Source: Clostridia bacterium (GTDB lineage Bacteria > Bacillota > Clostridia > TANB77 > CAG-465). Taken from it: 32,421 nt of DNA. The stretch covers positions 1-32,421 of the forward strand of contig JAUNGP010000017.1 in the NCBI GenBank assembly GCA_030524345.1, read 5' to 3'. Below, one piece after another: positions 12,183-15,087 of the stretch; position 1 is the first letter of the stretch; every line of letters starts with the position of its first letter. A program made the translations under genes and the position numbers. Below the pieces are notes generated by a model. The model was given only the letters and a program-made list of their open reading frames with translations, was not told the origin of the DNA and did not search any database.

Positions 12183-12280
12183 TATTGAATAGAATGATTA
12201 GTATCACTATTTTTTAATAAAACGCTTTATTTTTTGCAAAATATATAATATAATATAGAAAAATAAGGAGATTGATATTT

Positions 12281-13315
12281 ATGATGACATATAGTGAATT
12301 AATAAAGAATGTAAATATTTTGTTAGTGGACGATGATGAAGATTATCTATTGATGACAAATGCTTTTTTAAAACAATTAGGTTATAGTGTAGATACAGCA
12401 ATTAATGGTAAAGATGCATTAGAAAAATTAAATCGTAAAGATTATCAAATATTGTTACTAGATTATTTTATGCCAGAGATGAATGGAGAAGAAGTCATTA
12501 AAGAAATAAGAAAAAAGGATCAAGAGCTTATTATCATATTACAAACAGGATTTTCTGGACAAAAACCACCAATTGAAACAATGCAAAATTTGAATATACA
12601 AAATTATCATGATAAAACCGAAGGAATTGATCGACTAAATTTGGAATTGATATCTGCTATTAAAATTTTTAATCAGCAAAATCAAATTGAGCTTGCAAAG
12701 TATAGAACTAATGCAATTGGAAATTTAATTATTGGAGTAGCTCAAGAAATTAAGGCAAATCTTCTCTCTGTTAGTGCTGGAATAGAAGTAACAAATATGT
12801 TAATTCAAGACAAAAGTTTAATGATTGAAAGAGAAAATTTGGAGAGATTAAATAAATCATACAAAGGAAATAAAGATTCTTTAGAAAGAGTGGATAAAGT
12901 TTTAACTGCAATTATTAATCAGGTTACTACAGATGAAGACTATGTTATGCAGGATGAAGAGATTGTTGAAATTATCAAACTAATTCTTAAGAGCGTTTCT
13001 CGTGAAACTGGTGTTATATTAAATTCTAAAATTGCTTTAAAAGCAAAAAGTTATTTAAACGGATCTGTCAATGATGTGATATTTATTGTATGTGAAATAT
13101 TAAAGCAACTAATGGAATTACAAGAAAGAGGAACTAGTCTTGATTTTGTACTAACAGAAGATGAAAATAATTGGTATTTTAACATTTCAAGTGATAAGAT
13201 AAAGATGTTAAATGACACTAAGTTTTATTTGGTTAGAAAGATTATCATTTCAATAAAAAATATTGACATCCATGAAGAAGAAAATAGAATACAATTAATA
13301 TTGAAAAAGATATAG
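12281..13315 (+). CDS. Receiver domain fused to a degenerate histidine-kinase-like region
   Basis: A protein of about 344 residues. Residues 10-125 form a complete response-regulator receiver: acidic pocket DDD at 17-19, phospho-acceptor Asp61 (LLDYFMPEMNG), Thr89 and Lys112. No DNA-binding domain follows. Residues 135-344 instead resemble the dimerisation and ATPase regions of an NtrB-type sensor kinase. At the H-box, where VAHEINNPL-like sequence is expected, it reads VAQEIKANL, so the phospho-accepting His is Gln155. No clear N-, G1- or G2-box is seen after it, so kinase activity is unlikely. It may signal by dimerisation or binding after phosphorylation of Asp61. The start ATG 12281 is 10 bp after AAGGAG. 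The frame extends to a TTG at 12272, which overlaps the RBS zone. No cognate kinase is adjacent. Confidence 0.85.
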   Translation: MMTYSELIKNVNILLVDDDEDYLLMTNAFLKQLGYSVDTAINGKDALEKLNRKDYQILLLDYFMPEMNGEEVIKEIRKKDQELIIILQTGFSGQKPPIETMQNLNIQNYHDKTEGIDRLNLELISAIKIFNQQNQIELAKYRTNAIGNLIIGVAQEIKANLLSVSAGIEVTNMLIQDKSLMIERENLERLNKSYKGNKDSLERVDKVLTAIINQVTTDEDYVMQDEEIVEIIKLILKSVSRETGVILNSKIALKAKSYLNGSVNDVIFIVCEILKQLMELQERGTSLDFVLTEDENNWYFNISSDKIKMLNDTKFYLVRKIIISIKNIDIHEEENRIQLILKKI

Positions 13316-13323
13316 AAAAATAT

Positions 13324-13352
13324 TTGACAAGTATTTTGGAAAGTGTTATAAT
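13324..13352 (+). promoter_or_regulatory. Perfect sigma-A promoter for candidate RNA 1
   Basis: TTGACA (13324-13329), 17 nt, TATAAT (13347-13352). It starts 9 bp after the stop codon of the receiver-domain gene and has no protein-coding frame behind it. Transcription should begin near 13359. Confidence 0.9.
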
Positions 13353-13400
13353 TTGATTATCATTTTTTGATATTATCTTGTTAATACATGATTGATTTGT

Positions 13401-13465
13401 TTTTCATTTAGTTCTTGGAGAACACACTTTTTTTGTGAGAATCAGTTCGAATCTGATAATGAAAA
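13401..13465 (+). other. tRNA-like cloverleaf domain in RNA 1
   Basis: The acceptor-like stem TTTTCATT (13401-13408) pairs perfectly with AATGAAAA (13458-13465). After a 2-nt TA linker, as at tRNA positions 8-9, the D-arm-like hairpin is GTTC-TTGGA-GAAC (13411-13423) with GG in the loop. A short arm CAC-TTTTTTT-GTG (13425-13437) has a 7-nt loop. The T-arm ATCAG-TTCGAAT-CTGAT (13441-13457) has a canonical T-loop and abuts the acceptor stem with no linker. It is not a working tRNA: the anticodon-like stem is 3 bp, there is no CCA, and it lies inside a longer RNA. Confidence 0.6.
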
Positions 13466-13629
13466 TTTAGCACAAGCTTCATTGCCAAGAGCTTAGTGCT
13501 TAGTATAACTGATGAGGGAATACTAGTTTTGACGTTATATTAGGTTTTAGATAAAGGGAATTAAGAATTATCTTTGACTTGATATTACGAGATGAAACAG
13601 TAAAAAGTCAGTTATGCACTCCCCTTAGA

Positions 13630-13668
13630 AGAGCTAGTAGCAGGTTGACTGTTGCTAGTTCTTTTTTT
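13630..13668 (+). terminator. Intrinsic terminator of RNA 1
   Basis: AGAGCTAGTAGCA (13630-13642) pairs with TGTTGCTAGTTCT (13650-13662) around a 7-nt loop, a 13-bp stem with G-U pairs. Seven T follow. Confidence 0.9.
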
Positions 13669-13690
13669 ATAGAAAATATGAAATTTTAGT

Positions 13691-13719
13691 TGACAATGAA
13701 TAAAGTTTCATATATAATA
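13691..13719 (+). promoter_or_regulatory. Perfect sigma-A promoter for candidate RNA 2
   Basis: TTGACA (13691-13696), 17 nt, TATAAT (13714-13719), placed 22 bp after the RNA 1 terminator. Transcription should begin near 13725, directly before a strong 5' hairpin. Confidence 0.9.
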
Positions 13720-13777
13720 GAAATTGCTGGGGGATCCCTAGCAATGAAGTTAATACGAAATTGAATCTAATGTTTTT

Positions 13778-13841
13778 TCTCATCTTTGAATGGAAAGTGT
13801 AGTATTGATACTACAAATCAGTTCGAATCTGATATGAGGAC
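13778..13841 (+). other. tRNA-like cloverleaf domain in RNA 2
   Basis: The acceptor-like stem TTCTCAT (13778-13784) pairs with ATGAGGA (13835-13841) over 7 bp with one G-U. The D-arm-like hairpin is CTTT-GAATGG-AAAG (13785-13798), again with GG in the loop. The middle arm TGTAGTA-TTGA-TACTACA (13799-13816) is a perfect 7 bp. The T-arm ATCAG-TTCGAAT-CTGAT (13818-13834) abuts the acceptor stem. The 19 nt AATCAGTTCGAATCTGATA (13817-13835) are identical in RNA 1 (13440-13458), whereas all other arms differ in sequence but keep their pairing. Confidence 0.62.
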
Positions 13842-14055
13842 TGAACACAAATCATTTTTTATTTGGCGTTGTGCTAAAGGATTTGTCGTTCAAAGTGGCA
13901 TAGAGGAGGCCATCGAACCATTGTGAGTAGAATTTTTACAGAAGTTATAACAACATAGTTATTCCACTTCGTGACTTAAAATATCCATTCGTAATCAAAA
14001 ATTCTGTAACGATGGCTGCTCATAATGGTAATCGATGGAATCTAATGCCAAAATT

Positions 14056-14088
14056 AAACTAGTAATGATTAATTACTAGTTTTTTTTA
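14056..14088 (+). terminator. Intrinsic terminator of RNA 2
   Basis: AAACTAGTAAT (14056-14066) pairs perfectly with ATTACTAGTTT (14072-14082) and continues into a run of T. Confidence 0.9.
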
Positions 14089-14415
14089 TATAAATATTAC
14101 TACTTTATGTGAATCGAAGTACCGAATAGTTGTATGCTAAGATTCACTTATCTTATGGCATTGTATAAAATAGACATTGCCAAATTTCATTTTATTATGA
14201 TAGGTTAAGAATAGGGTTTTATGAAGATATATGATAGGAATTGATTATCTTTACTTTAACATAAATTTTTAAGTTACCAGATAAAAGTTTCCAATGTATA
14301 TATTGCAATTATGCATATATTATGTTATTATATTAACATAATATATATAATCTCTTTGAAAAGTATAAGAATTCTTAGGGGGATGTCTCTGAAACAATTA
14401 AAAGGAGGTACACTT
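14089..14415 (+). other. Gene-free leader region with a palindrome and likely promoter
   Basis: No protein or RNA gene is supported in this 327-nt stretch. GTGAATC (14109-14115) can pair with GATTCAC (14141-14147), but no promoter or terminator frames that hairpin. Near the next gene, ATATATTATGTTA (14315-14327) is repeated inversely as TAACATAATATAT (14334-14346) with a 6-nt gap. TTGCAA (14303-14308), 17 nt, TATTAT (14326-14331) is a possible promoter overlapping this repeat; a TATAAT also lies at 14346-14351. The repeat could be an operator for the 14416 gene. Confidence 0.4.
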
Positions 14416-15087
14416 ATGCCAAATTACATTATGATTCAAATGGAAAATCGGATAACACATTTACTAAATGAAGACTTTTCTTCGGTAACATTTGCTATTC
14501 AAAAAGGAGAAATGGATTCTGTATTGAAAGAAGAATTGAAGAATCATTCAATCTGGTGTGATCAGGTTTTTGACCACTATGAGTTATTTTCAGATCACTT
14601 AGAGTTTGTTGAATTTACTGCTCCATTATATACATACAATGGAAAAGAAAAGCCTAAACTAACATCAGAATCACAGACAATTCTATGTATCATTCCATTG
14701 GATTACGAAAGGGCTAAAACAGTTTTTTTGACTTGCAAAGAAATCGTAACTAAAAAACTCGCATCATATTTTGATTATATCTATAATAGCCGTACTCTTG
14801 ATAAAGGAATGTCGTCTACAATTCATTTTAATGATATATTTACTATTGAATATATTCCAGATGAATATGAAAAATATATTCCAAAAAAATACATAAAAGT
14901 ATATGAGTGGCGAACAAATTTAAACTCACGTCTTGTCCTTTTTATAAAAAAACAAGATGCTAACGGTGATGTAGTTAAAATAAAAGTAGAAGACCAAATA
15001 AAAAGGGTTATTCTTGAGGATCATGGAGAAAAACTAAAAAATGTAGCTAAAATAATAAATGCAAGTAGAATAGAAATAATTAGCTGA
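14416..15087 (+). CDS. Cytoplasmic protein of unknown function
   Basis: A 223-residue protein that I do not recognise. It has no signal peptide or membrane segment. The composition is mixed, with many aromatic residues and a Lys/Val-rich C-terminal third (VVKIKVEDQIKRVILEDHGEKL). The open frame extends upstream to 14311, but that part overlaps the AT palindrome and has no ribosome site. ATG 14416 has AAAGGAGGT 7 bp before it and is the clear start. The gene is single, follows the two structured RNAs, and ends at a terminator. Whether it is functionally linked to the RNAs is unknown; their intervening terminators argue against a cis-regulatory leader. Confidence 0.75.
   Translation: MPNYIMIQMENRITHLLNEDFSSVTFAIQKGEMDSVLKEELKNHSIWCDQVFDHYELFSDHLEFVEFTAPLYTYNGKEKPKLTSESQTILCIIPLDYERAKTVFLTCKEIVTKKLASYFDYIYNSRTLDKGMSSTIHFNDIFTIEYIPDEYEKYIPKKYIKVYEWRTNLNSRLVLFIKKQDANGDVVKIKVEDQIKRVILEDHGEKLKNVAKIINASRIEIIS

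Follow-up and report, generated by a model that had tools for sequence, protein, structure and literature searches.

Tandem small RNAs with a tRNA-like head in a Clostridia genome: a candidate family of CCA-less tRNA mimics

In this study, we analysed a 32,421-nt stretch of DNA (hereafter the window), corresponding to contig C39 of a 1.7-Mb Clostridia MAG of gut type (G000), and identified two adjacent units, u1 and u2, which are very probably small RNAs (sRNAs) with a tRNA-like head. Judging from their sequences and predicted folds, the two appear to be paralogous and independently transcribed, each carrying a tRNA-mimicking domain near its 5' end. These heads closely mimic the tRNA fold yet cannot work as tRNA. 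Comparison with related genomes suggests that u1 and u2 represent a genuine and conserved family of tRNA-mimic sRNAs, new as a family, whose function we infer below.

The two units are in tandem and are flanked by a response-regulator gene and a 258-aa ORF of unassigned family (14311-15087); the features of the locus are listed in Table 1. Both promoters match the consensus at 12 of 12 positions. Perfect promoters with 17-nt spacing occurred five times in the window (both strands), compared with twice in 300 shuffled sequences (one strand); the other three, at 1259 (+), 21937 (+) and 30590 (-), are not linked to u1 or u2. Folding predicted that each unit ends in a long hairpin followed by U7 (u1) or U8 (u2), and neither terminator was listed by a simple terminator scan of the window. 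No ORF of at least 80 aa was found in the two units. The longest ATG frames starting within them encode 30, 16 and 15 aa, an additional 22-aa frame starts at 13696, within the u2 promoter, and no convincing Shine-Dalgarno sequence was found for any of these frames. Thus, the preliminary description of the locus as two adjacent, non-coding promoter-to-terminator units was borne out, and the Lachnospiraceae named in it were not supported, the nearest named records being 'uncultured Clostridia' MAGs.

Table 1. Predicted features of the u1 and u2 locus (positions in the window)
Feature	Position	Strand	Remarks
Response-regulator receiver protein gene	12272..13315	+	Conserved neighbour; syntenic anchor upstream of u1
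Promoter of u1	13324..13352	+	TTGACA-17-TATAAT, extended -10 TG
RNA u1, predicted transcript of ~310 nt	13359..13668	+	Ends predicted; 5' to 3': leader, tRNA-like cloverleaf, hairpin, long irregular hairpin, terminator
tRNA-like cloverleaf of u1	13401..13465	+	8 bp acceptor, UA linker, D-arm with GG, weak U7 arm, T-arm; no CCA
u1 acceptor, 8 bp	13401-13408 with 13458-13465	+	
u1 UA linker	13409-13410	+	
u1 D-arm	13411-13423	+	Loop UUGGA
u1 T-arm	13441..13457	+	ATCAG-TTCGAAT-CTGAT
Hairpin just 3' of u1 cloverleaf	13470..13499	+	Fold
C-rich ACTCCCC of u1	13618..13624	+	Predicted unpaired, just upstream of terminator
Intrinsic terminator of u1	~13628..13668	+	Fold
Promoter of u2	13690..13718	+	TTGACA-17-TATAAT
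RNA u2, predicted transcript of ~365 nt	13725..14087	+	Ends predicted
5'-terminal hairpin of u2	13725..13743	+	Fold
tRNA-like cloverleaf of u2	13777..13840	+	7 bp acceptor, D-arm with GG, UUGA-capped arm, T-arm; no CCA
u2 acceptor, 7 bp	13777-13783 with 13834-13840	+	No linker before D-arm
u2 D-arm	13784-13797	+	Loop GAAUGG
u2 UUGA-capped 7 bp hairpin ('anticodon' arm)	13798-13815	+	
u2 T-arm	13817..13833	+	Same sequence as u1 T-arm
3' domain of u2	13842..14050	+	Hairpin and long irregular helix; strongly structured (z -6.6)
Intrinsic terminator of u2	~14055..14087	+	Fold

In both heads the acceptor stacks directly on the 5 bp T-arm, giving a continuous acceptor/T-stem stack of 12-13 bp, and a cloverleaf with GG in the D-loop and a T-loop of the TTCRANY type is present in each. 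A motif scan that combined an acceptor, a D-stem with GG in its loop and a T-arm found only these two cloverleaves in the window, with scores of 22 and 21, the best score in 200 dinucleotide-shuffled windows (both strands) being 20. Neither RNA has the cloverleaf as its minimum-energy fold, and forcing it costs only 1.5 (u1) and 1.2 kcal/mol (u2). The 'anticodon' arms of the two RNAs disagree: that of u1 is weak, with 3 bp and a U7 loop, whereas that of u2 has 7 bp and a UUGA cap. Of the cloverleaf proposed previously, the 8 and 7 bp acceptors, the stacked T-arm, the TTCGAAT loop and the D-loop GG stand, and the 3 bp of the anticodon arm of u1 call for a small correction. A decoding tRNA could be rejected for both units, as neither has a 7-nt anticodon loop (with U33 and purine 37) on a 5 bp stem or a CCA end, and ARAGORN reported no tRNA in the window.

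Homologues were sought in related genomes. In the sister species G024 (record CALXBS010000002, uncultured Clostridia), a single RNA (G024a) is located 3' of the response-regulator gene, whose protein shares 77% amino acid identity between G000 and G024, and has its own sigma-70-like promoter and terminator. Its cloverleaf shows 87% mean column identity to that of u1 and scores 48.7 bits against the tRNA model (RF00005); its anticodon-like arm differs from that of u1 in sequence and still pairs. These two species also share a second syntenic pair of tRNA-like RNAs, located upstream of rimP-nusA (G000:C20:11791-11868 and G024:C23:10740-10820), and none was found in the rimP upstream region of 26 other species of the genus. 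Similarly, no u1-type orthologue was found at the response-regulator locus of 13 other genomes of the genus that have the gene, or of four GTDB relatives. A covariance model (R1), built from two sequences including u1, scored u1 at 90.7 bits, u1 being one of its building sequences, and u2 at 36.2 bits (E 5.8e-5). When 385 genomes of the order were searched with R1, three further weak matches appeared beyond the two species; on inspection, two (L192 and L193) had no cloverleaf, and the third (L194) contained neither a tRNA nor a match to the motif scanner.

The five close RNAs (u1, u2, G024a and the rimP-nusA pair) were then used to examine covariation in an alignment fitted to the structure, in which 98.6% of the structure cells pair. 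Five acceptor pairs have changed on both sides, a number reached in 2 of 500 shuffles, and sliding the partners by 1-3 columns lowered pairing to 36-50%; the D- and T-stem columns show almost no variation. With few sequences and an alignment fitted to the structure, we consider this support good, not overwhelming. Homologues with compensatory acceptor changes, which the preliminary description had proposed to look for, do exist, and together with synteny they support a tRNA-shaped module within a larger standalone RNA. Mutual pairing of u1 and u2, another of its suggestions, gained no support, the duplex energy being matched by 23 of 100 shuffles.

One alternative is that the heads descend from a tRNA-Cys-like gene that was copied, lost its CCA end and anticodon, and is now drifting beside unrelated transcripts. 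This would account for a T-arm, ATCAG-TTCRAAT-CTGAT, that is the same as that of the tRNA-Cys(GCA) of the genus; however, the shared T-arm is partly an artefact, having served as the search query. Moreover, the acceptor changes are compensatory, every copy retains the D-arm, the GG and the T-loop, the promoters are perfect, the terminators are dedicated, and synteny is preserved across species despite diverged flanks. This explanation is already disfavoured, and we regard it as very improbable.

Outside the cloverleaf, the RNAs have little in common. As whole molecules, u1 and u2 fold more stably than shuffled sequences (z -5.5 and -7.8, respectively). Their leaders, of 42-52 nt before the head, share the motif GTTAATAC(N3)ATTGA, with a local alignment score of 20 against a maximum of 18 in 100 shuffles, which fits a tandem duplication. 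The 3' domain of u2 has no sequence relation to that of u1, and no alignment among the 3' parts of u1, u2 and G024a surpasses that of shuffled sequence; thus, the conserved portion is the cloverleaf. The 3' domain of G024a is no more structured than expected by chance (z +1.1), and a conserved 3' function is not supported by it.

tRNA scaffolds stabilise recombinant RNAs. The head, which in every type of RNA described here is placed at the 5' end or close to it, might likewise be a compact fold that shields the 5' region from RNases of the RNase J/Y type and has no specific partner. We think this rather unlikely: a simple hairpin would be sufficient for protection, the head of u1 and u2 is preceded by a leader, and GG, TTCGA and, in most members, U8-A9 are retained exactly, which suggests that the elbow is recognised. 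The confinement of conservation to the cloverleaf, with unrelated 3' parts in u1, u2 and G024a, would also be expected if the RNAs were decoys or sensors, in which the attached cloverleaf titrates a tRNA-binding factor (a modification enzyme, a T-box leader, an anticodon nuclease or a ribosome site). The RNA would then act by competition, its 3' part being a mere stabiliser and no 3' RNA being delivered; a role as competitive inhibitor has been proposed for the tRNA-like domain of YrlA (PMC7790460). However, there are several different heads per genome and no target is known, and the 3' domains of u1 and u2 are long, very stable and look more than decorative. A decoy or sensor thus seems unlikely, if worth keeping in view.

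tRNA-headed RNAs are not limited to the u1 type. Of the 28 genomes of the genus, 12 were found to carry an RNA of ~150 nt (R2 type; E 1e-19 to 1e-26 with model R2), and in 11 of these 12 species it adjoins the same radical-SAM gene and has a conserved promoter. The R2 cloverleaf begins at or next to the predicted +1 and consists of a 4 bp acceptor, a UA linker, a D-arm with GG, a short arm and a T-arm, and it is followed by a hairpin, the conserved stretch AATCCTTTTTAATAATTTTT and a terminator. The acceptor, anticodon-like and T stems each have a pair changed on both sides. Across the R2-type loci (L195-L206), AATCCTTTTTAATAATTTTT is strictly conserved and single-stranded between hairpin and terminator, and the sequence UCCUUUUU in these RNAs resembles an anti-Shine-Dalgarno, a possible target-pairing site. 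The R2 model found no match in G000 or G024, where other structured-looking intergenic stretches are present instead upstream of the same radical-SAM gene (G000:C36, L234 ~2300-2570; G024:C21, L233 ~2300-2580); both end in a common terminator, AAGAGAG..CCCC..GGGGCTCC, and have no Rfam match.

Further CCA-less tRNA-like RNAs with terminators were found in other genera of the order (L112, L115, L116 and L207) and in this genus (L055 and L114). Among 93 distinct tRNAs predicted by ARAGORN in the fetched loci of the order, 88 encode CCA and another is truncated at a contig end; the remaining four comprise two tRNA-like RNAs of this analysis and two lookalikes, labelled tRNA-Asn(att) (L116, G144) and tRNA-Leu(gag) (L207, G371). 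A hairpin lies directly 3' of L116 and a terminator-like hairpin 3' of L207, and both are likely tRNA-like sRNAs. A 'tRNA' call that lacks CCA, tRNA-Asn(att) being an example, can be an sRNA and should be treated with caution. About 0.6 kb downstream of the SpF41-like RNA L114 (G002:C32:8142-8244) is an ORF with a match at its start to REC1 (PF18501), a recognition-lobe domain of Cas12a-type proteins. The odd RF00005 matches in G000 had ordinary explanations: those on C8 and C27 are tRNAs cut by contig ends (C27 judged from coordinates only), and that on C6 (L050, G000:C6:3488-3543) is a 5' tRNA-Lys fragment separated by ~0.2 kb from an intact tRNA-Lys; a tyrosine-recombinase-like ORF adjoins the two, and the fragment is a remnant of element integration at a tRNA gene.

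With regard to function, it is plausible, if slightly short of an even chance, that the head works by way of enzymes that process or modify tRNAs, and the tRNA-handling protein suggested in the preliminary description would fit. The tRNA elbow is gripped by both RNase P and RNase Z (PMC4810234). In Bacillus subtilis, RNase Z acts on tRNA precursors devoid of CCA and is more active when a U lies no more than 2 nt from the discriminator (PMC10100781). The sequence determinants of these enzymes are present in u1 and u2 (12-13 bp stack, elbow, no CCA and a U near the discriminator), and all five close RNAs combine such a stack with a U within 2 nt of the discriminator, the nearby U being weak evidence because the genome is AT-rich. 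Our best reading, to which we give a little less than even weight, is that the CCA-less tRNA-mimic head engages RNase Z/RNase P and in this way processes, stabilises or delivers the variable 3' RNA. The elbow and the 12-13 bp stack would be the feature recognised by the tRNA-maturation enzymes; the head would engage RNase Z and, where a 5' leader is present, as in u1 and u2, RNase P as well; and cleavage would release or mature the 3' RNA, which would then act by base pairing. That the 3' part of u1 and u2 acts by base pairing is a more tentative suggestion. In u1, the unpaired ACUCCCC could possibly pair with Shine-Dalgarno sequences (a UCCC-type motif). On the other hand, R2-type RNAs, with a 4 bp acceptor, offer no normal 12 bp substrate for RNase P or RNase Z, which counts against a role of maturation enzymes.

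The nearest named family is SpF41_sRNA (RF02435; pneumococcal F41/srn277), a standalone 100-nt Firmicutes sRNA with an acceptor-like stem, a TTCGAAT T-arm at the acceptor, a short arm, no CCA and a terminator. The same architecture, i.e. a tRNA-like 5' domain and an intrinsic terminator in a predicted independent transcript, was found in u1 and u2. However, the Rfam structure of SpF41 lacks the D-stem that is real in u1 and u2, the long 3' domains are a feature of u1 and u2, and SpF41 belongs to streptococcal prophages and satellite phages, often just before terminase genes, whereas u1 and u2 lie among core genes. An RF02435 search of u1 and u2 gave no match even at E 10. With no match and a real D-stem, u1 and u2 are not members of SpF41 and share its build. 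In the order, most RF02435 matches are to ordinary tRNAs with a terminator downstream; L112, L114, L115 and L055 scored 44, 43, 41 and 34 bits, respectively, all below the gathering cut-off of 52 bits. A search with the Rfam SpF41 consensus retrieved 28 streptococcal phage and satellite-phage records, and in four of the four full-size phages inspected the RNA immediately precedes the terminase genes, flanked by a short late gene on one side and the region of the terminase small subunit on the other (loci L243-L248). The phage copies share a few bases with the 3' end of the ORF that precedes them, and their position might have to do with packaging or late transcription. Of the papers searched, those that mention F41 do not term it tRNA-like. 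F41 pulled down RNase Z, as did other pneumococcal sRNAs, so that the link is not specific (PMC7196914).

A single genus thus contains several separate tRNA-headed RNA types, including one with orthologues in 12 species, and a streptococcal sRNA that is named but unexplained is built alike. This suggests a design that recurs, set aside by tRNA finders as aberrant tRNAs and missed by sRNA surveys. It is conceivable, albeit unlikely at present, that CCA-less tRNA-mimic heads are an unrecognised and recurrent sRNA architecture of Clostridia and of streptococcal phages and satellites, with the tRNA-maturation machinery (RNase Z, RNase P) as cofactor. If true, RNase Z/RNase P would process, or be regulated by, sRNA, and would fill the place of Hfq-like chaperones elsewhere.

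Only a handful of cases of noncoding tRNA mimicry are known in bacteria, such as tmRNA, YrlA and yjdF. The preliminary description had recognised no RNA class in the locus, and the negative ARAGORN and Rfam results agree: no Rfam family matched the window at its gathering cut-off. Nor are u1 and u2 T-box RNAs. Weak matches to Lacto-rpoB, RsaH and other families (E 0.3-10) are at chance level, including the RsaH alignment that overlaps the ACUCCCC stretch of u1. A phage or plasmid origin was rejected as well, u1 and u2 having no match in phages or plasmids; two IMG/VR pattern matches proved to be a coding sequence and an ordinary tRNA-Thr. With tRNA (RF00005), u1 and u2 share the cloverleaf, the U8-A9 linker (u1), the D-loop GG, the T-loop and a 7 bp acceptor on a 5 bp T-stem, but they lack CCA, which genuine tRNAs here encode, and are embedded in RNAs of 310-365 nt with their own terminators. 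YrlA, a bacterial Y RNA, is likewise a noncoding RNA with a tRNA-mimicking module; however, no Y stem joins the ends of u1 and u2, their folds showing no end-to-end pairing that could carry a Ro-binding site, and the YrlA model is unlikely because Ro60/Rsr (TROVE, PF05731) was found in 0 of the 28 genomes of the genus. tmRNA also joins a tRNA-like domain to other domains, but forms it from the two ends of the RNA, whereas the cloverleaf of u1 and u2 is contiguous and near the 5' end; these units have no tag ORF or CCA, and ordinary tmRNA genes are present in relatives. The yjdF riboswitch (RF01764), to which Rfam gave no match, is a tRNA-derived regulatory element with a D-loop/T-loop elbow (PMC9142559) and acts as the cis leader of an mRNA, whereas u1 and u2 terminate before any gene.
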